Position numbers and translations under genes: made by a program. Shown here in pieces: positions 5,115 through 21,986 of a DNA stretch of 64,000 bases. The stretch lies in the NCBI RefSeq assembly GCF_000166415.1, contig NC_014654.1, forward strand, positions 1,426,001-1,490,000, given 5' to 3'. This stretch comes from Halanaerobium hydrogeniformans (GTDB taxonomy: Bacteria; Bacillota; Halanaerobiia; Halanaerobiales; Halanaerobiaceae). The notes under the pieces were generated by a model, which saw only the letters and a program-made list of their open reading frames with translations, was not told the DNA's origin and did no database searches. The stretch's first letter is position 1. Each line of letters opens with the position of its first letter.

Positions 5115-6482
5115 TTAGACTGGGAAAATAATTTTGAAAATACTACCATTATTATTACTATCCACCTCTATTTTTGCACCATGAGCTTCAATTAATTCTT
5201 TTGTAACCGCAAGTCCAATCCCGGTTCCACCATTTTCAGAAGAACGAGATTTATCTGCTCTATAAAATCTTTCAAAAATATATGGTAAATCTTCTCTAGA
5301 AATTCCATAACCCGTATCAGAAATTTGAATAATAATATTATTATCTCTTTGGCAACTTTTAATTGTAATCTTTCCATTATCTCGGTTATATTTGACAGCA
5401 TTTTCAATTAAGTTATTTAATATTTGAATCAAGCTATCTTTATCTGCCTCAATTATTAGTTCTTTTTCCAATTCTAGATTCAATTTTATATTTTTAGATT
5501 CAATCTGCTTTAGCTTTTTTTTGCTTACATTTTTAATCAGTTTGTTAATTTCTATTTGCTCTTTCTGTAGATTAAAAATCTTATTTTGAGCTTCAGCAAA
5601 TTCTTTTAATTTCTCTATTAAAGATACCATCCTTGCAATTTCTTCTTTAAGTTCATCAAGATTTTCCTGGTTTAAAGAAATTTTGCCATCTTCAAATGCT
5701 TCAATATATCCCTTGATCGTAGTAATTGGAGTTCTTAATTCATGAGCAAGATCAGATGCCGATTCTTTACGTATTTTTTCTAATTTCACTAATTTTTCTG
5801 TCATTTGATTAAATGCTGTTATTAATTCTGCTAATTCATCATCCCCATTATTAGAAATTTTTTGGTCAAAATCACCTTCTGCTACTTTGAAAGCTGCATT
5901 TTTTAATTTGATTAAGGGTTCAGTTATTATTCTAGAGATTATAAAAGAAATAATTATTACCAGAACTATCACTATTAAAGCACTAAAGATTATAGCCTGA
6001 AAAACATTTCTTCTAAAATAATTATAAAGTTCTGAATCAATCTGCTCACGAGAGCTAACTTCCTGCCAGTATAAAGTAGCCTGAAGGCTGTCTTCAACAT
6101 AAATTTCTTCTCTTCTACTTTGTCCAGGTAGAAAATCACTTCTTTCAGTCACCATATGAGAATCTCCCATCATCCTTCTCATCATTTGATGATGTTGAGT
6201 TGGAGCAAATATTATATTGCCATCTCTGTCTTCAAGCCAGACTGGGATTCTATGGGTTCTCACAAAATTATTTAAGAGTGAGTTTATCTCATTTCTTGAA
6301 CCAGCTTCAAAGTTTTCTCTTAGCATCTCTAAGAGTTCTTCTATACTTTCCTGCTGTTGTAAGTTAATAAAATCATCAAATCTTTCTCCGATCGAATAAT
6401 TGATAAAAAGACCTACTAAAAGCATAGAGAAAACAACAAGTATTAAAAAGATTATAAATAATTTTTTACCAAGTTTAGACAT
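5115..6482 (-). CDS. Membrane sensor histidine kinase with a Met/His-rich sensor loop
   Basis: 455 residues. There are two membrane helices (about 7-29 and 163-187) with an extracytoplasmic loop of about 130 residues between them. HAMP follows (about 188-240), then the HisKA dimerisation helix with the phosphorylated His near 246 in DLAHELRTP. The ATPase domain has an N box (NLIENAVKYN) and G boxes (DTGYGISREDLPYIFERFY, GGTGIGLAV). All catalytic motifs are intact. The sensor loop has a Met/His cluster near residues 95-110 (HHQMMRRMMGDSHM), reminiscent of copper- or silver-binding loops, though metal sensing is only an inference. Its start overlaps the stop of the regulator gene as TAATG, indicating translational coupling. 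The likely targets are its own operon, including exbB-exbD-tonB. Confidence 0.92.
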   Translation of the reverse strand: MSKLGKKLFIIFLILVVFSMLLVGLFINYSIGERFDDFINLQQQESIEELLEMLRENFEAGSRNEINSLLNNFVRTHRIPVWLEDRDGNIIFAPTQHHQMMRRMMGDSHMVTERSDFLPGQSRREEIYVEDSLQATLYWQEVSSREQIDSELYNYFRRNVFQAIIFSALIVIVLVIIISFIISRIITEPLIKLKNAAFKVAEGDFDQKISNNGDDELAELITAFNQMTEKLVKLEKIRKESASDLAHELRTPITTIKGYIEAFEDGKISLNQENLDELKEEIARMVSLIEKLKEFAEAQNKIFNLQKEQIEINKLIKNVSKKKLKQIESKNIKLNLELEKELIIEADKDSLIQILNNLIENAVKYNRDNGKITIKSCQRDNNIIIQISDTGYGISREDLPYIFERFYRADKSRSSENGGTGIGLAVTKELIEAHGAKIEVDSNNNGSIFKIIFPV

Positions 6483-7159
6483 TAAATATCACCGGTAAAC
6501 TTATAACCTGCTCCGTAAACAGTGACTATATATTCATCTTTTTTTAGTTTAAGTTTTTTGCGAATATTTTTTATGTGTGTATCAATAGTTCTATCAAAAC
6601 CACTGAATTCTAAACCCATTACCTTATTCGCTAATTGTTCTCTACTTAATACTTGCCTGGCATTATTTATTAATTCCATTAATATTTTGAATTCAGTTGA
6701 GGTTAAATCACAATTATCATTATCCTGTTTAACAACCATTTCTTCTGGATATATTTTTATATTACCATCTTTTAAAGTTATTATGCTTGCTTTATTGCTG
6801 TCATTGCTTCTTCTTAGAACTGCCTTTATTCTTGCTTTAAGTTCACGAGGGCTAAATGGTTTAGTGATATAATCATCAGTTCCATAATTAAAACCATCAA
6901 TTTTATTTTCTTCACTACTTTTAGCGGTGAGCATTATAATAGGAATTTGTGAACTTTGCCTTATTTTTTGACAGACTTTTTCGCCGCTTAATTTTGGGAT
7001 CATTAAATCCAGGATTATTAAATTAAAATTATTATCGGCAAATAATTTCAGTGCTTTTTCCCCATTCTCAGCTTCATAAACCTCATAATCTTCTTCCAAA
7101 TAGGAGGTTATTATTTTTCTTATTTTATATTCATCTTCAACTATTAAAATCTTATCCAT
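6482..7159 (-). CDS. OmpR/PhoB-family response regulator
   Basis: 225 residues. The receiver domain (about 1-120) has the acidic pocket at ED (8-9), the phosphorylated Asp near 51 in LIILDLMIP, the conserved Thr in MLTAKS and Lys in YITKPFSPREL. The C-terminal winged-helix DNA-binding domain (about 130-225) ends in TVYGAGYKF, typical of the OmpR family. The ATG follows GAGGTG at good spacing. It is the first gene of the operon, with a promoter candidate 57-86 bases upstream and the spoVS terminator just beyond that. It pairs with the kinase encoded directly downstream. Confidence 0.95.
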   Translation of the reverse strand: MDKILIVEDEYKIRKIITSYLEEDYEVYEAENGEKALKLFADNNFNLIILDLMIPKLSGEKVCQKIRQSSQIPIIMLTAKSSEENKIDGFNYGTDDYITKPFSPRELKARIKAVLRRSNDSNKASIITLKDGNIKIYPEEMVVKQDNDNCDLTSTEFKILMELINNARQVLSREQLANKVMGLEFSGFDRTIDTHIKNIRKKLKLKKDEYIVTVYGAGYKFTGDI

Positions 7160-7215
7160 ATCAACACCTCAATAAAGTAAAAATATTATTGGAAACCCTT
7201 AACCATCTATTATAC

Positions 7216-7245
7216 ATTATATAACTTTTAGGGCCTATAGTACAA
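7216..7245 (-). promoter_or_regulatory. Candidate sigma-A promoter for the two-component/TonB operon
   Basis: Reading the minus strand, TTGTAC (7245-7240) is followed after 18 bases by TATAAT (7221-7216). It lies between the spoVS terminator and the start of the response regulator, as expected for the operon promoter. A second TATAAT-like hexamer lies ten bases further on, so the exact start is uncertain. Confidence 0.5.
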
Positions 7246-7254
7246 GCTTAAATT

Positions 7255-7289
7255 GAAAAAATCTGTTTGCCCGTTAAGGCAAACAGATT
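7255..7289 (-). terminator. Intrinsic terminator after spoVS
   Basis: A perfect 12-base-pair stem (AATCTGTTTGCC / GGCAAACAGATT, 6-base loop) is followed on the minus strand by five T residues. It separates the spoVS transcript from the two-component operon. Confidence 0.9.
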
Positions 7290-7298
7290 AATTAAACT

Positions 7299-7559
7299 TT
7301 ATCTTGGCTCTACAATCAATTTAATGGCTGTTCGTTCTTCACTATCTATTTCTATATCTGTAAATGCAGGAATACAGATTAGATCTACTCCACTTGGAGC
7401 AACAAAACCTCTTGCAATGGCTACTGCTTTGACACCTTGATTAATTGCTCCAGCCCCAATTGCCTGCAATTCAGCATTGCCATTCTCCCTCAAAACCCCT
7501 GCTAGAGCACCAGCAACCTTGTTTGGGCTAGAACTAGATGATACTTTTAATATTTCCAT
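7299..7559 (-). CDS. spoVS: Stage V sporulation protein S
   Basis: 86 residues and full length for SpoVS, a small, highly conserved Alba-like protein. The sequence MEILKVSSSSSPNKVAGALAG and the IGAGAINQAVKA-like and APSGVDL segments are characteristic. In Bacillus it affects asymmetric septation and spore coat assembly, but it is also kept by non-sporulating relatives, so its presence does not prove sporulation. It follows rny and ymdB, the conserved Firmicute order. The ATG has AAGGAGG 11 bases upstream and the gene ends in its own strong terminator. Confidence 0.96.
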   Translation of the reverse strand: MEILKVSSSSSPNKVAGALAGVLRENGNAELQAIGAGAINQGVKAVAIARGFVAPSGVDLICIPAFTDIEIDSEERTAIKLIVEPR

Positions 7560-7655
7560 TTCATCGATTACCTCCTTGATTGGTTATATATTTATTCCCT
7601 CTATAAATTATATATTAACCGTAAATGACACATTTTCCTGCATGAAAACAAAAAA

Positions 7656-8432
7656 TTACAAATTATTTTTATTTATTATACTAATATTTTCTGTAATTCT
7701 ATTTATTTCATCTACTTCAAGGAGTACAGAATTGATTTTAACCGCTCCAGTAGCAACTTCATATCTAACTGGTAGTGAAGTTTTCATTTTCTCAACCATA
7801 TTTTCAACTTTCATACCAATAATAGAATCAACTGCACCAGTTAAACCAACATCGGTTATGTAGGCAGTTCCCTTAGGAAATATCTGAGCATCATTAGTTT
7901 GAACATGGGTATGGGTTCCTATGACAGCGGTAACCATTCCATCTACCGCTCTTGCAAATGCCATTTTCTCCCCTGATGCTTCTGCATGAAAATCAACGAT
8001 TATTATATCTGAATCCTTTATCGCTGGATAGAGTTCCATAAATTCATGATAGGGAGAATCATGAGTATTCATATAAACCTGACCGATTAAATTGACCACA
8101 GTAATATTTTTATTATTTTTATTAATTGTAATCCAACCCCTACCGGGATTATTTTTAGGAAAATTCAATGGCCTGATAATTCTCTTATTATACTCAATAA
8201 AGTTAAAGATATCTTTATTATCCCAGGTGTGATTACCCATTGTTAAAACATCTATCCCATATTCATAAAGTTCTTCAGCAGTTTTTTCGGTTATTCCAAA
8301 ACCACCAGCAGCATTTTCACCATTTGCGATTATTAAATCTACCTCATGTTTTTTTACAATCTTATCTAAGAACTTTCTTAATGCTCTGCGCCCTGCTCGA
8401 CCCATTACATCTCCAACAAATAATATATTCAT
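7656..8432 (-). CDS. ymdB: YmdB-family metallophosphoesterase (cyclic nucleotide phosphodiesterase)
   Basis: 258 residues, typical for the family. The calcineurin-like metal motifs are visible: FVGDVMGRAG at the N terminus, NGENAAGGFG, MGNHTWDNK, and HAEASGEK followed by GTHTHVQTND. In Bacillus YmdB hydrolyses 2',3'- or 3',5'-cyclic nucleotides and influences RNA decay and the choice between motility and biofilm. It lies between rny and spoVS, the usual neighbourhood, which fits a link to RNase Y. The ATG has AAGGAG eight bases upstream. A terminator hairpin separates it from rny, so read-through or its own promoter must supply expression. Confidence 0.93.
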   Translation of the reverse strand: MNILFVGDVMGRAGRRALRKFLDKIVKKHEVDLIIANGENAAGGFGITEKTAEELYEYGIDVLTMGNHTWDNKDIFNFIEYNKRIIRPLNFPKNNPGRGWITINKNNKNITVVNLIGQVYMNTHDSPYHEFMELYPAIKDSDIIIVDFHAEASGEKMAFARAVDGMVTAVIGTHTHVQTNDAQIFPKGTAYITDVGLTGAVDSIIGMKVENMVEKMKTSLPVRYEVATGAVKINSVLLEVDEINRITENISIINKNNL

Positions 8433-8520
8433 TAAAATTCTCCTTACAATTTATACTGGATTTAGATTTTATTATCCAATTATAATGTATTTTAGCAAAT
8501 TTATCAAATATTTTCATTAT

Positions 8521-8544
8521 AAAAAGGCCCCTCAAAGAGGAGCC
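8521..8544 (-). terminator. Intrinsic terminator after rny
   Basis: An 8-base-pair GC-rich stem with one G-U pair (GGCTCCTC / GAGGGGCC, loop TTT) runs directly into TTTTT on the minus strand, 26 bases after the rny stop. Confidence 0.85.
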
Positions 8545-8569
8545 CATTACTTTCAAGTTTATATTTAAC

Positions 8570-10114
8570 TTATTTAGCATAATCAACTACCCGAGTTTCT
8601 CTAATAATTACAACCTTTATTTGGCCTGGGTAGTCTAGATTTTTCTCGATTTTCTTTTTGATATCTCTAACCATTTTTGTTGATTCGAAATCATTGATTT
8701 TATCTGGTTCTACGATAACTCTAATTTCTCTTCCGGCTTGAATAGCATAAGCTTTTTCGACACCTTTAAAAGATTGTCCGATTTCTTCAAGATCTTCAAG
8801 ACGTTTAATATATGATTCGAGAGTTTCTTTTCTTGCTCCAGGTCTTGCAGCAGATATTGCATCACCAGCTGCTACTAAAACTGCTTCAACCGATTTAAAC
8901 TCTACATCACCATGATGAGCATCTATAGTATGGAGTATCTTTTCGCTCTCACCGTGTTTCCTGGCTATATCTACACCAAGATCAACATGTGTTCCTTCTA
9001 AATCATGGTCGATTGCTTTTCCAATATCATGTAGTAATCCACCACGTTTTGCTAAAGTAACATCAGCCCCTAGTTCAGCAGCCATGATACCAGCTAAATA
9101 GGATACCTCTGTTGCATGTTGTAATACATTTTGTCCATAACTTGTTCTGAATTTAAGTTTACCTAATAATCTTACAAGTTCAGGATCTAAACCATGAACA
9201 CCTGTATCAAATGTTGCCTGTTCACCTATTTCTTTAATGTGTTGGTCAAGTTCTTTTTCCGCCTTTTCTACCATTTCTTCTATTCTAGCGGGATGAATTC
9301 GACCATCATCAATTAGTTTTTCAAGTGCTATTCTTGCAATCTCACGTCTGATTGGATCAAAGCCAGAGATTACAACAGCTTCAGGAGTGTCATCTATAAT
9401 CAAATCAATTCCTGTAAGACTTTCTAATGTTCTGATATTTCTACCTTCACGACCGATAATTCTACCTTTCATATCATCATTGGGTAGATTAACAACCGAA
9501 ATGGTTGATTCAGTTACATGATCCGCTGCACTTCTCTGAATAGCAAGCGATATTATTTCTCTTGCTTTTTTATCAGCTTTTTCTTGAGCTTCTGCTTCTT
9601 TTTCTTTAATCATTTTAGCTAACTCATGATCAAGCTCAGCTTCAACTTTATTCAGCAAATATTCTTTTGCTTCACTTTCTGAAAAACTAGAAATCTTCTC
9701 TAATTTTTCAGTTTGTTCTTCTTTAATCTTTTCTATTCTTTCTTCAGTCTGACTGAGATTTTTTTCTCGATCTTTAATGCTCTGCTCTTTTCGTTCTAAG
9801 TTGTCAGCTTTGCGATCAAGGTTTTCCTCTTTTTTCATGAGGCGATTCTCAAGCTTTTGCAGCTCATCACGTCTTTTTTGACTTTCTTTATTCGCTTCTT
9901 CACGAATTTTATGAGCTTCTTCTTTAGCTTCAAGAGTAATTTCTTTTTTCTTTGCCTTAGCATCTCTTTCTGCATCTTTTAAAATCTTTTCTGCTTCATT
10001 TTCTGCAGACTGCATACGGGCTTTAGCAATATATTTTCTAATTAAATACCCGGTTACAATACCGATGGGTAGGGCTATTATAAAATACAAAACAGCTTCG
10101 TTAATAATATTCAC
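8570..10114 (-). CDS. rny: Ribonuclease Y
   Basis: 514 residues, standard for RNase Y. An N-terminal membrane helix (about 6-25) is followed by a very long charged coiled coil (about 30-200). The KH RNA-binding domain has [12 protein letters not shown] (about 220-232), and the HD phosphohydrolase domain has [10 protein letters not shown] and the later HHGD (about 360-400). It is a membrane-tethered endonuclease that starts mRNA decay. The only standard start is a GTG that overlaps the AGGAGGTG ribosome site; the in-frame ATT codons three and six bases beyond it are better placed, so a non-standard start is possible. Downstream come ymdB and spoVS; upstream recX ends in its own terminator. Confidence 0.97.
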
Positions 10115-10222
10115 CTCCTGACTTATATTCAGTTTTTAGTTGATTTTAATTTTATTTACTATTTACATTTTAACTTTTTTAAGGCCTTATGTCAAGCAAA
10201 TATATTGATATGCCTTAATAGT

Positions 10223-17845: not shown

Positions 17846-17871
17846 AAAAAAAAGAAGTCGAATTCGACTTC
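17846..17871 (-). terminator. Intrinsic terminator after tRNA-Thr, copy 1
   Basis: A perfect 18-base palindrome (GAAGTCGAATTCGACTTC) followed on the minus strand by eight T residues. Confidence 0.92.
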
Positions 17872-17884
17872 CCTGTCATATCAA

Positions 17885-17960
17885 TGGAGCTGATGACCAG
17901 ACTTGAACTGGTAACCTGCTCATTACAAGTGAGCTGCTCTACCAATTGAGCTACATCAGC
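17885..17960 (-). tRNA. tRNA-Thr (TGT), copy 1
   Basis: 76 bases including encoded CCA. The acceptor GCTGATG pairs with CATCAGC, the anticodon stem GCTCA/TGAGC holds loop CTTGTAA, and the anticodon is TGT. The body is identical to the copy at 21750-21825. It is co-transcribed behind tRNA-Trp. Confidence 0.95.
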
Positions 17961-17986
17961 CTATTATTTTATATTAATTAAAAAAA

Positions 17987-18062
17987 TGGCAGGGGAGGCA
18001 GGAATTGAACCCGCAACCAACGGATTTGGAGTCCGCTACTCTGCCAGTTGAGCTACTCCCCT
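17987..18062 (-). tRNA. tRNA-Trp (CCA), copy 1
   Basis: 76 bases including encoded CCA. The acceptor AGGGGAG pairs with CTCCCCT, the anticodon loop is CTCCAAA in a 5-pair stem, and the anticodon is CCA. It is first in its two-gene transcript and identical to the copy at 21851-21926. Confidence 0.95.
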
Positions 18063-18107
18063 AAAGCTTTCTTTAACAATAGATTTATTTTCTCAGCGAC
18101 AATTAAT

Positions 18108-18136
18108 ATTATAATCATTAAGCCGACATTTGTCAA
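18108..18136 (-). promoter_or_regulatory. Consensus promoter for tRNA-Trp/Thr, copy 1
   Basis: On the minus strand TTGACA (18136-18131), a 17-base spacer and TATAAT (18113-18108), a perfect consensus match. Confidence 0.9.
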
Positions 18137-18160
18137 GGAAATGTACTTAAAAAAGTATAA

Positions 18161-19666
18161 TTACTTTGCAGTAGAAAAAATATTATGATAGAGGTCCTGA
18201 CCATAACTGGTAATTAATGGCCTTGCTTCAACTATTTTAAAAGTTCGGCTACCATCATCTTTTCTTTCTGCTCTCAGAAATTTAACATCATCATCTTCTC
18301 TCTCATAAAAACTAGATGCAAAATTATAGAGATGAGTGACAAATAAGATTTTAATTTTTTTCTCTATTAATGCCTTTACAATCTGTCTTGCGATCTCTGA
18401 GCCTTCTTTTTCAGTTGTTGCTGCAAAAGACTCATTAAACAAAACCATAGCATTAGGCTCGAGATTATCCACTATTTTGTTCATCCGTTTTAATTCTTCA
18501 TCAAACTTTCCACTTTCCATTTCCGTGTCTTCTTCTCGTTTATAATGTGTATAAAGATCCTGGCAGAGATTAGAAGTGTATGATTCTGCTGTCACAAACA
18601 TTCCTGCCTGCATCATAAGTTGAGCTAAACCGATCGCTCTTAAAAAAGTTGATTTGCCACCTTGATTGGCCCCAGTAATAATATAAAGACTTTCTTTTTC
18701 AGCTTTTAGATCATTTCCAACAACTTTATTTTCCATGGTTAAAGCTAAACAGGGATCATATAATTCTGTAATTTGCTGTTTTCGTTCAGTAACTTTCAGT
18801 GGTTGGGGAAAACTTATCGGCTCATCTAGTTTTTCTAATTTCTTAGAAAGATTTAAACAACCAATATAGAAAGAAAGTTCTACACGTAATTTTTCAAAAA
18901 AACCCAGAATATGATCTGAGGCTTGACCAACTGTATTGGCAGTATAATTGACTGCTCTATCTTTAATCTCTGAAATGGCCCTAAAGCCAGCATCATCGCG
19001 GGAATTTATAGAGAACCTATATGAACGAGCTGAATTAAAAGAAATCTTTGACCAAAGATGTTCAAACAAATTACTGTTTTCATTTCTGAGCAGGGAATAG
19101 TTGTTTCCTTTATTACCCTCTTTCAATTCTGCTTTGATGAAAGTTCCTTGTCGGAATTTTAACTCCTCTAAATGCCCTTCTGCTTCAGCAAAAAATTGAT
19201 TATTTAGTTGTTTCTGTATTATTTCAAAAAACTGTTTAAATCCCTCAGAATCAAATTCTTCTTTATGGTTATCAGCCATCATTCTTAACTTTTCTAGCAT
19301 TTCCAGAAAATCTTTAAGTAAATTTACAGAACCACTCAATATTGATGTTGGTGATTTCCTTAAAATACCGATATAATGATTATTTTTTTTATCGATAGCT
19401 TCAATTACAAGTTTATAAAGATCTTTAACAACTTTAGTATTTTTTAAACAATCTTTTAAAATATCCTGCCGATAAATAATGTTAGAAATGTCAGTAAGAC
19501 TATTAAGTATTGTTTTTTTGACAACATCTTTAATCAAATCATCTTCATTTGCCATAGCTTTTAGTAAAGTATTAAGTTCTAGATCTTTAATCAGGGCTTT
19601 AGAATTTTCTGGCAATTTCATCTCTTGATCAAAATCTTTTTCTGGATACATTAGAAATACCTTCAT
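18161..19666 (-). CDS. MutS-family ATPase without mismatch-recognition domain (second of a tandem pair)
   Basis: 501 residues, about half the length of MutS. There is no N-terminal mismatch-reading domain; residues about 1-320 are a helical lever/clamp-like region and about 325-480 form the MutS-type ABC ATPase. Walker A is GANQGGKST (near 332-340). A signature-like region follows (THYKREEDTEMESGKFDEEL), and the Walker B is MVLFNES, with Asn where MutS has Asp; the D-loop/His region appears as VTHLYNF. The start codon overlaps the stop of the preceding paralogue by one base. Substrate unknown: family members lacking domain I act in recombination or on structured DNA rather than mismatches. 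The pair may form a heterodimer, which is an inference. Confidence 0.85.
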   Translation of the reverse strand: MKVFLMYPEKDFDQEMKLPENSKALIKDLELNTLLKAMANEDDLIKDVVKKTILNSLTDISNIIYRQDILKDCLKNTKVVKDLYKLVIEAIDKKNNHYIGILRKSPTSILSGSVNLLKDFLEMLEKLRMMADNHKEEFDSEGFKQFFEIIQKQLNNQFFAEAEGHLEELKFRQGTFIKAELKEGNKGNNYSLLRNENSNLFEHLWSKISFNSARSYRFSINSRDDAGFRAISEIKDRAVNYTANTVGQASDHILGFFEKLRVELSFYIGCLNLSKKLEKLDEPISFPQPLKVTERKQQITELYDPCLALTMENKVVGNDLKAEKESLYIITGANQGGKSTFLRAIGLAQLMMQAGMFVTAESYTSNLCQDLYTHYKREEDTEMESGKFDEELKRMNKIVDNLEPNAMVLFNESFAATTEKEGSEIARQIVKALIEKKIKILFVTHLYNFASSFYEREDDDVKFLRAERKDDGSRTFKIVEARPLITSYGQDLYHNIFSTAK

Positions 19667-21192
19667 TAACTAATCCTCTCCTTCAAGCAATCATAAGTAA
19701 GCCTGTATTTTTCAGCAATTGAAACTGCATAGGCCACCCCATTAGCTTTTTCTCTAATTAACTTATATGTTCGATTTGTGGGATCATCTGATTCAACCTG
19801 TGCTACCATACTAACTACTTTAGGGCTCATAGAAGTCAATTCGTCCAGAAAAGTTACACAGATAGCTATTGAATCTTTCTTTATTATTTTTTTAAGGACT
19901 TTTTTGCCGAGAAAAACAGCATCTCTTGCTGTTGTAGAAGTAAATATTTCATTCAAAATAACCAGGCTGCGATCTGTTATCTGATTAATAATTTTTCGAA
20001 TTCTTAAAAGATCACTTTCTAATTTTCCATGCAAATCCTTAATATTTTCTTCTCTTTCAAAGTGAGTAAAAATTCCTTCAAATAAAAAGAGCTTGGCTTT
20101 TTTAGCTGGTATAGGACAACCAAGGTTTGCTAGATAATGTAATTGTCCAAAACTACGTGCAAAGGTCGTTTTACCACCCTGGTTAGGTCCTGTTACAACT
20201 ATAATTCTTTCCCTGTCTTCTAGATAAAAATCATTACTGATCACAGTTTTTTGCTTTTTGGAATATTTTTGAGCTAGAGCAAGATCAAACATCTGCTGAC
20301 AGGATTCATTCTTATCATCAGTACTCAGTATAGGATAGCAGAAACTTAAACCAGCCTTCTTCAAAGAAGAAATATTTTCAAGATATGCTAAATAGAATTG
20401 TACCTCTCGATCAAAAACGCTAATAGTTTGGTCCAAAAAGTCAGAATGAGTATTATAATAATTATCAAGTCTAGAAAAAATATCTGGATACAGTTTTGCT
20501 ACCCTTTCAATTATTTTAGCTTCAACATGGTTCATACCTGTAGAAGTTCGCAAATTATTTTTATAATCCTTTGCTCCATTTTCTTTAAATCTTGCGAATG
20601 TTTGTTCTATTTCGGGTCGGTAATCTTTTTCACCCTGATATTCCTGAACTCTAACTTTCCCTCCATAAATATTCAGACAGTATTTAATATCTGCCAGTTC
20701 TTCTTTAATTTCCTCCATTTCTCGCTGCAGATTATTAAAATAATCAGTATCTACATAATCCAGTAGATATTCTTTAAAGCTAAGAAAACCTAATGATTTT
20801 AATTTAGTACTTTTTAATCCAGCAGTTAGTTCATTTACTGCCTGACAGTAAAGATCAACAGCCTCTAATAACCAGCCCTGCTGGTTATACTTATAGCTAA
20901 GTTCTTGAACTAGATTGAGAAACTGTCTTACCCTACGCATCTTTTTAGCAAAACTATCTATCTTTTTGTAAAGTTCATTATTTTCTAGCTCCTGCATTAT
21001 CTGCTGACGGTACTTGATATTTTCAAGGTTGCTAAGAGGTCTGTAAAAAAAAGATTTCAAGTTATATTCTTTCTTCCCAGCAGTAATATTATTAACTATC
21101 TGATCAAGATTTAGATCACCAAAAAAATCTGGTTCTTCTTCATTTCCATTATAAGTAGCATCTTTATATAATATACTATGGAAATCTTTCAT
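19666..21192 (-). CDS. MutS-family ATPase without mismatch-recognition domain (first of a tandem pair)
   Basis: 508 residues. It has the same layout as its downstream neighbour: a helical N-terminal region (about 1-320), then a MutS-type ATPase with Walker A GPNQGGKTT (near 332-340), IFTHFEREENIKDLHGKLESDL in the signature area, and Walker B LVILNEIF with the same Asp-to-Asn change. MutS would have GPNMGGKST and LLDEIGRGTS. The two proteins are clearly related but well diverged, so this is an old duplication. The ATG follows AAGGGGGA. Upstream lies a promoter-hairpin-terminator unit that could be its leader. No mutL or true mutS is nearby. Confidence 0.85.
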   Translation of the reverse strand: MKDFHSILYKDATYNGNEEEPDFFGDLNLDQIVNNITAGKKEYNLKSFFYRPLSNLENIKYRQQIMQELENNELYKKIDSFAKKMRRVRQFLNLVQELSYKYNQQGWLLEAVDLYCQAVNELTAGLKSTKLKSLGFLSFKEYLLDYVDTDYFNNLQREMEEIKEELADIKYCLNIYGGKVRVQEYQGEKDYRPEIEQTFARFKENGAKDYKNNLRTSTGMNHVEAKIIERVAKLYPDIFSRLDNYYNTHSDFLDQTISVFDREVQFYLAYLENISSLKKAGLSFCYPILSTDDKNESCQQMFDLALAQKYSKKQKTVISNDFYLEDRERIIVVTGPNQGGKTTFARSFGQLHYLANLGCPIPAKKAKLFLFEGIFTHFEREENIKDLHGKLESDLLRIRKIINQITDRSLVILNEIFTSTTARDAVFLGKKVLKKIIKKDSIAICVTFLDELTSMSPKVVSMVAQVESDDPTNRTYKLIREKANGVAYAVSIAEKYRLTYDCLKERIS

Positions 21193-21339
21193 TTAATCGT
21201 TCCCCCTTTTTAAAATAAAAGCAATAATTAGTATTTTAAAACTCTCTGTTTTAGGATATGAACTGCTTGATTACTTCTTTAATATTTTTTGTAAAATCAT
21301 AATTGTTGCAATTTTCTCTGAAAAAGTATAGTAAAATGC

Positions 21340-21390
21340 AAAAAGCCCCTATTTATCAATAAAGTCGAATCTTTACTGTTAAATAGGAGC
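21340..21390 (-). terminator. Long intrinsic terminator of the candidate small RNA
   Basis: The outer stem has 11 pairs (GCTCCTATTTA / TAAATAGGGGC), then one mismatch and an inner stem of 8 pairs (CAGTAAAG / CTTTATTG) with a 6-base loop, and the stem is followed by TTTTT on the minus strand. Confidence 0.85.
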
Positions 21391-21454
21391 CATTATCTCA
21401 AATAATTGAGCAGTTTAAGTGAGCACCTTCACTTATTTAGTTTTACTTTACTAC
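21340..21454 (-). ncRNA. Candidate small RNA or attenuated leader upstream of the MutS-like pair
   Basis: Reading the minus strand from a predicted start near 21454, three hairpins follow each other: AAGTGA/TCACTT (21434-21417), CTCAA/TTGAG (21410-21397) and a long terminator stem (21390-21345). A promoter with correct spacing precedes it, so a transcript of about 115 bases is expected. There is no credible reading frame in it. The T-box ACCGC core and common riboswitch cores are not recognisable. The MutS-like genes start 148 bases beyond the terminator, so it may be either an independent small RNA or a regulated leader. The family is unknown to me. Confidence 0.5.
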
Positions 21455-21460
21455 TTAAAT

Positions 21461-21489
21461 ATTATATTAAAATTTATTATTAAAGTCAA
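21461..21489 (-). promoter_or_regulatory. Promoter of the candidate small RNA / MutS-pair leader
   Basis: On the minus strand TTGACT (21489-21484), a 17-base spacer and TATAAT (21466-21461). It sits just upstream of the three-hairpin element. No convincing promoter was seen between the terminator and the MutS-like genes. Confidence 0.75.
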
Positions 21490-21705
21490 GATAAGCAACT
21501 TAAAAAATCATCTATTGGTCTGTTAAACAGCTAACTTTAGCTTAGATTTCATTTTTAATATCTTTTCTCCCCTTGATATACTCACTATAACTTTCCTATC
21601 TTGGCAGTTTTAGATAAAATGCTGGAAGCAGCAAAAGATAATATTCAGATGATGTATAAAAACGCAAGTGATTTTTAAATAGCAGTAAAATGGCAAAATT
21701 GCATT
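21490..21705. other. Non-coding stretch between small-RNA promoter and tRNA-Thr copy 2
   Basis: About 215 bases with no supported gene on either strand and no recognised family. It is AT-rich with scattered stops in all frames. Together with the RNA element it makes up the gap of over 550 bases between the MutS-like pair and the tRNA cassette. Confidence 0.6.
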
Positions 21706-21738
21706 AAAAAAAGGAAAGCCGAAAACATCCGACTTCCC
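21706..21738 (-). terminator. Intrinsic terminator after tRNA-Thr, copy 2
   Basis: A 9-pair stem with G-U pairs (GGGAAGTCG / CGGCTTTCC, loop GATGTTTT) followed by seven T residues on the minus strand. Only its upstream arm matches the terminator of copy 1. Confidence 0.85.
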
Positions 21739-21749
21739 TGTCATATCAA

Positions 21750-21825
21750 TGGAGCTGATGACCAGACTTGAACTGGTAACCTGCTCATTACAAGTGAGCT
21801 GCTCTACCAATTGAGCTACATCAGC
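21750..21825 (-). tRNA. tRNA-Thr (TGT), copy 2
   Basis: 76 bases with encoded CCA, anticodon TGT in loop CTTGTAA. Identical base for base to the gene at 17885-17960. Confidence 0.95.
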
Positions 21826-21850
21826 ATATTATTTTATATTAATTGAAAAA

Positions 21851-21926
21851 TGGCAGGGGAGGCAGGAATTGAACCCGCAACCAACGGATTTGGAGTCCGC
21901 TACTCTGCCAGTTGAGCTACTCCCCT
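21851..21926 (-). tRNA. tRNA-Trp (CCA), copy 2
   Basis: 76 bases with encoded CCA, anticodon CCA in loop CTCCAAA. Identical base for base to the gene at 17987-18062. A second tRNA-Trp gene is uncommon because one gene usually suffices. Confidence 0.95.
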
Positions 21927-21957
21927 AAACGCATGTATTTTCAATCAAGCAATAACT

Positions 21958-21986
21958 ATTATAATAGAGTTATGGTTTAAGGTCAA
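21958..21986 (-). promoter_or_regulatory. Promoter for tRNA-Trp/Thr, copy 2
   Basis: On the minus strand TTGACC (21986-21981), a 17-base spacer and TATAAT (21963-21958). The spacer and flanks differ entirely from those of copy 1, so both cassettes are probably expressed but from unrelated promoters. Confidence 0.88.

Follow-up and report, generated by a model that had tools for sequence, protein, structure and literature searches.

In Halanaerobium hydrogeniformans, 3.7 kb of acquired DNA with a putative fluoride-induced operon of two MutS-like ATPases has probably interrupted an old tandem array of tRNA-Trp and tRNA-Thr genes. The locus lies in the window, i.e., the whole 64,000-nt stretch of DNA that was analyzed. 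The initial annotation suspected a mobile circle here. We replace it with an order of events in which the tandem tRNA array came first, and an insertion then left each tRNA unit with a promoter and a terminator. Insertions of accessory operons into tRNA arrays are an ordinary kind of event, and the history of this one is well resolved. The locus further draws attention to a widespread pair of MutS-like genes under putative fluoride control, recorded in 2010 only as 'mutS' and unlikely to serve mismatch repair.

The two tRNA cassettes and the DNA between them

Cassette A (17885-18062) and cassette B (21750-21926) both lie on the minus strand, and B comes first in the order of transcription (Table 1). 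ARAGORN, Rfam, and sequence comparison confirmed the earlier description of two direct copies with identical tRNA bodies and about three spacer differences: the tRNA genes are pairwise identical, the Trp-Thr spacers (26 and 25 nt) differ at 3 positions, and the exact runs common to both cassettes are 96, 18, and 84 nt long. The start-to-start distance of 3,864-3,865 bp agrees with the 3.9 kb first given. The copies had been put at 200 bases; the repeat is real, but the homology is longer, as it continues for 20 exact nucleotides beyond tRNA-Thr and into the terminator. The exact tRNA-Trp anticodon-arm pattern GGACTCCAAATC occurs at only two sites in the 2.61-Mb single-contig genome, and these are the two cassettes. 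Between them lie only the MutS-like gene pair, a fluoride riboswitch, and short flanks, in line with the gene pair and small RNA unit reported there, the latter being the fluoride riboswitch (RF01734).

Table 1. Features of the split tRNA array and its insert (positions in the window)
Feature	Position	Strand	Description
Terminator after cassette A	17851..17874	-	Ancestral array terminator, common to relatives
tRNA-Thr(TGT), cassette A	17885..17960	-	ARAGORN, Rfam
tRNA-Trp(CCA), cassette A	17987..18062	-	ARAGORN, Rfam
Extra DNA between cassettes compared with G003	18063..21749		3,687 bp; G003 has 5 nt (TTTTT) here
Promoter of cassette A	18108..18136	-	TTGACA-17-TATAAT, 12/12; within the insert
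MutS-like protein 2 (501 aa)	18161..19666	-	MutS domain V ATPase; Walker B N411-E412
MutS-like protein 1 (508 aa)	19666..21192	-	MutS core and domain V ATPase; Walker B N414-E415
Hairpin with T-run overlapping the aptamer 3' end	21344..21391	-	Putative transcriptional expression platform
Fluoride riboswitch aptamer (RF01734)	21377..21442	-	35.3 bits against a gathering score of 34; full-length match (1-64)
Promoter for riboswitch and MutS-like pair	21461..21489	-	TTGACT-17-TATAAT
Probable decayed IS remnant	21597..21618	+	22-nt match to the outer tip of the resident IS605 (left end and adjoining target bases)
Terminator after cassette B	21712..21739	-	5' part identical to that of A, hairpin different
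tRNA-Thr(TGT), cassette B	21750..21825	-	ARAGORN, Rfam
tRNA-Trp(CCA), cassette B	21851..21926	-	ARAGORN, Rfam
Promoter of cassette B	21958..21986	-	TTGACC-17-TATAAT; ancestral array promoter, nearly identical in G003

The promoters and terminators of the cassettes were called by a consensus scan, and the two promoters are indeed unrelated, as had been noted. Promoter B with its leader differs by only one or two changes from that of G003, the sister species of the host (RimO tree, support 100/99), and its pattern is common to all relatives. The region of the -10 box and the start of promoter A differs from the ancestral array promoter and resembles the promoters of Halanaerobium rRNA and tRNA operons. 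Here, 22 of 22 nt equal a region upstream of the 16S rRNA gene in G009, and similar stretches precede the 16S gene in G004 and a Pro-Gly-Arg-His tRNA operon in G008. Promoter A is therefore of the stable-RNA type of the genus. Terminator A and the sequence downstream of it match G003 and form the end of the ancestral array. The first 20 nt of terminator B are exactly those of terminator A; it keeps the array-type stem and then diverges, and it aligns with the terminators of all relatives. The stretch 21700-21929 is 89.6% identical over 230 bp to the terminal cassette and terminator of G003 (BLAST). From these comparisons, promoter B with its leader and terminator A are the old parts of the locus, and promoter A and terminator B the new ones. 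Both cassettes have the appearance of complete transcription units, since one side of the insert supplies a terminator and the other a stable-RNA promoter.

The locus in relatives and the history of the insertion

We searched for the cassette in 14 Halanaerobiaceae genomes (G000 to G013, the host being G000) and examined its surroundings up to 20 kb. G003, G004 (a single-contig assembly), G005, G006, G007, and G010 each have two cassettes in direct tandem, G008 has three, and G001, G002, G011, and G013 have one, with the caveat that draft assemblies may collapse 180-bp tandem repeats. G009 has the order Thr-Trp-Thr, with the first tRNA-Trp decayed, and G012 has Trp-Thr followed by a lone Thr 4.4 kb further on. 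The MutS-like pair is absent from the locus in each of these genomes. Protein searches did not recover it from any of the 13 other Halanaerobiaceae genomes; what they returned there was limited to ordinary MutS and MutS2, plus a few weak matches of the KamC type. The initial annotation had suggested looking for relatives with one cassette and no pair. Such relatives exist, but those with two and three cassettes all lack the pair as well. Since the sister species and most of the genus carry tandem cassettes without the pair, the tandem array most simply predates the insert, and from the sequences compared the tRNA repeat is most likely the older of the two.

G003 is collinear with the window on both flanks (84 to 86% identity), and the break runs exactly from 18065 to 21748. 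The insertion part of the earlier proposal, a past insertion with target duplication, is thus upheld by the 3,687 bp that are extra compared to G003, but the target duplication is not, as relatives have tandem cassettes without the pair. The other proposal, that gene conversion kept the copies alike, fits the data well. Within G003, G004, G005, G007, G008, and G010 the Trp-Thr spacers are identical or nearly so, but they differ between species, which indicates concerted evolution of the tandem cassettes. As recombination routinely homogenizes the copies, the likeness of A and B gives no date for the insertion.

We consider it probable that the acquired DNA split an existing array. A donor segment would have carried its own promoter, a Trp/Thr cassette, an array-type terminator, and the MutS-like operon, and it would have entered through homologous recombination between the donor cassette and a resident one. 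The resulting order would be ancestral promoter, cassette, donor terminator, cargo, donor promoter, cassette, and ancestral terminator, and later gene conversion would keep both cassettes alike. An array-type terminator is not expected from a chance insert, and recombination with a donor cassette gives exactly the order observed. Duplication through homologous (Campbell-type) integration is likewise compatible with the terminators and promoters. Because the copy number of the array is labile (1, 1.5, 2, or 3), the immediate ancestor could have had a single cassette. The G+C contents of the pair genes (31.6 and 32.2%) equal that of the host, so that the composition shows no sign of foreign origin. 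No donor or intermediate-state strain was found, and the entry route is therefore the one that we infer from the order of the parts.

A less probable account, although one to be taken seriously, is that a ready-made segment with terminator, riboswitch, MutS-like pair, and promoter was inserted into the 5-nt spacer of a tandem pair without the help of cassette homology. G003 has exactly such a tandem pair with TTTTT in between, the breakpoints fall exactly there, and the number of cassettes need not change. However, terminator B is of the array type and begins with the same 20 nt as terminator A, which a random insert would not bring. One-sided gene conversion running past tRNA-Thr could repair this objection, and when direct insertion with such a conversion is weighed against entry by homologous recombination, we find the latter the more probable by a moderate margin.

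It is unlikely that the cassette was duplicated in this lineage alone, independently of the arrays of the relatives, for example by a segmental duplication at a time when the pair already lay next to a single cassette. The single cassettes in G001, G002, G011, and G013 do show that the array gains and loses copies, and array-type terminators end both cassettes, but tandem arrays are present in the sister species and in most of the genus, and a segmental duplication would not give the unrelated promoters.

Very improbable is the reading of the 3.9 kb as a mobile element that leaves as a circle, with the cassettes as its att sites or as a target duplication, produced by a tRNA-targeting integrase or a transposase. 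In its favor, the segment is bounded by direct repeats, integration into tRNA genes is common, and a 22-nt IS605 tip is located within the segment. However, relatives have duplicated cassettes without the insert, the repeat consists of two whole genes with unlike promoters and not of a 3' gene fragment, and genes for an integrase, a recombinase, or replication are missing from the segment. Moreover, IS200/IS605 elements do not duplicate their target (PMC7290912), and a tRNA gene is near only 1 of 48 other pair loci. For a tRNA-integrated mobile element, neither an integrase nor an att repeat from a tRNA 3' end was found, and neither of the two coding genes of note is a recombinase. IS transposition with target duplication was rejected on the repeats of about 200 bp, which are whole genes and stand in tandem in relatives without the insert. 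A habitual link of the MutS-like pair to tRNA genes was also rejected, as the single tRNA gene among the 48 other loci scanned lies 3.4 kb away. The IS605 tip itself, located between the riboswitch and tRNA-Thr, occurs 21 more times in the genome when up to 2 mismatches are allowed and matches the outer end of the resident IS605 element; the ends of this element have been described (PMC7290912). There was no further credible IS605 part in the insert, and a search for the source of the insert flank 21443-21726 gave no full-length match elsewhere in the 14 genomes, only this tip. Deletion of the pair by RecA-type recombination between the cassettes, leaving one cassette, is possible in principle, but it would be a passive event. 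The data examined show no sign of excision, and neither an integrase or replication gene nor an att site was seen in the segment.

Two relatives show other changes in the array. In G009, the promoter and leader persist 5' of the first Thr and are followed by the fragment AGGGGTGGTGA where tRNA-Trp was. An interruption of this array is also seen in G012, from another genus of the family (L110, G012:C29:180801-200800, about 5450-10120): Trp-Thr with its own terminator is followed by 4.4 kb with five unrelated genes, among which a peptidyl-prolyl isomerase and a BMP-type lipoprotein were assigned by eye, and then by the lone Thr with its own promoter. The Trp/Thr array may be a recurrent place of insertion.

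The fluoride riboswitch and the distribution of the gene pair

The aptamer upstream of the pair exceeds the RF01734 gathering score, but only just. An intrinsic terminator overlaps it, a 20-bp hairpin (21391-21344) followed by a U-run, and a stretch of 111 nt has a folding energy of -34.6 kcal/mol (z -7.0). This is the layout of a riboswitch upstream of a gene, and the next gene starts at 21192. Fluoride-bound riboswitch would be expected to block the overlapping terminator and so switch on the MutS-like pair. The association of riboswitch and mutS is already known since 2010, and the gene family is neglected but was previously noticed. Weinberg et al. (PMC2864571) place this riboswitch class, with overlapping terminators, upstream of genes that include 'DNA repair (mutS)', and the window has the same arrangement of riboswitch, terminator, and mutS. 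The relevant passages of that paper name mutS in passing, whereas the two-gene family, the Walker B change, and the placement in a tRNA array are not described in them. In our literature search, fluoride riboswitches or fluoride resistance were relevantly joined with MutS only in PMC2864571.

The host genome has a second fluoride riboswitch, and a CrcB gene was not found in it. The second riboswitch (L144, G000:C1:745401-748467, at 1501-1567) precedes a short open reading frame and not a fluoride exporter; this frame reads like the start of a dynamin-like GTPase (GQFKRGKSTLINAL). CrcB (PF02537) was found in only 1 of the 14 Halanaerobiaceae genomes, G009, which has no fluoride riboswitch. Each of the remaining 11 genomes of the genus has one or two fluoride riboswitches and lacks CrcB.

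We define the fluoride-linked MutS-like gene pair as a group in this analysis, and the window has its features: adjacent, unlike MutS-like genes in a fixed order, with Asn-Glu at Walker B. Relatives of the upstream gene with 40 to 56% identity occur in Clostridia, Thermotogota, Chloroflexota, Proteobacteria, Acidobacteria, and one archaeal MAG, as well as on 46 plasmid records, and wherever the contig allows, the second gene follows the first in the same order. In Bacillota the pair is patchy, with 19 of 398 sampled genomes (host included) carrying it. Among a first set of 27 loci, 20 had at least one fluoride riboswitch, and in 13 a gathering-level one, pointing the same way, stood no more than about 650 nt upstream; in a second set, which has at least one contig in common with the first, a fluoride riboswitch lay within 500 nt upstream in 10 of 19 loci. 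Neighbors in several loci are genes for enolase, phosphoglycerate mutase, CrcB, a P-type ATPase, a universal stress protein, and antiporters, and on the Citrobacter plasmid NZ_CP011133.1 the pair stands beside genes for enolase, phosphoglycerate mutase, CrcB, a universal stress protein, and an antiporter. In several loci the pair thus sits among genes such as those of fluoride-resistance islands (GI3 of Enterobacter cloacae FRM [PMC5533749] and plasmid islands), for which horizontal transfer is common. In contrast to these islands, the pair in the window has no exporter or enzyme genes beside it. In PMC5533749, the six genes of the GI3 operon that was tested do not include mutS. Judged by its sequences and their distribution, the pair appears to be a horizontally acquired, conserved two-gene family, linked to fluoride riboswitches and scattered across phyla and plasmids.

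A pair of MutS-like ATPases with an altered Walker B motif

The two genes overlap, and both proteins have the domain V ATPase of MutS1 (PF00488, 79 to 80 bits). Known MutS families did not fit otherwise. Full-length MutS1 was rejected (NF003810, 83 to 94 bits against 480), as the proteins are only 501 to 508 aa long and have no Pfam match to the mismatch-binding domains I and II. MutS2 (TIGR01069, 82 to 86 bits against 400; Smr not matched) and the KamC reactivase (NF052383, 62.6 to 72.6 bits against a cutoff of 300) were rejected as well. PADLOC matches to antiphage defense were marginal (24 and 18 bits) and presumably reflect the common ATPase motif, and a peptide-pattern scan of IMG/VR for viral carriage found no relative of the pair.

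Walker A is kept in the pair. In Walker B, all aligned sequences of the two subfamilies (23 of 23 and 21 of 21) have Asn in place of the Asp that adjoins the catalytic Glu. AlphaFold models of both proteins had pLDDT values of 86.6 and 84.0, and the model of protein 1 was compared with the PDB. It aligned with 8rz9_A (VIA-align Z 30.7, 3.7 Å over 385 residues) and with the MutS2 core 7vuk_B (Z 28.4, 3.5 Å over 370 residues), so that the predicted fold of protein 1 matches the cores of MutS, MSH2, and MutS2. The pair differs from the MutS and MutS2 families in that it lacks a Pfam match for mismatch recognition or Smr, has Asn in place of the Walker B Asp, and always occurs as a pair of unlike subunits. 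KamB and KamC (lysine 5,6-aminomutase reactivase) are likewise MutS-like ATPases named for a role other than mismatch repair, although their profile match to the pair is weak.

The conserved pairing, the fold, and the company of the genes make it more likely that the pair forms a fluoride-stress ATPase complex than a mismatch-repair MutS, and we infer a two-subunit, fluoride-induced ATPase with a role other than mismatch recognition. More tentatively, and with some doubt, it might be a machine dedicated to fluoride stress, a two-subunit MutS-like ATPase that lacks mismatch-recognition domains and has the Walker B Asp changed to Asn in both subunits. It would act by remodeling a target damaged by fluoride, such as ribosomes or enzymes trapped by Mg-F complexes, and would spread horizontally as a minimal unit of riboswitch and operon.

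A 548-aa MutS-like open reading frame of G004 (L038), KamC-like by size only, differs from the pair in that its Walker B is the usual Asp-Glu. Asn in Walker B is also seen in two distant MutS-like genes of G030 (L097 and L098). Among the PDB matches, the entry 3k0s is titled D693N and contains E. coli MutS with this deliberate change; by our reading of the motif, the changed position would correspond to the Walker B Asn of the pair.
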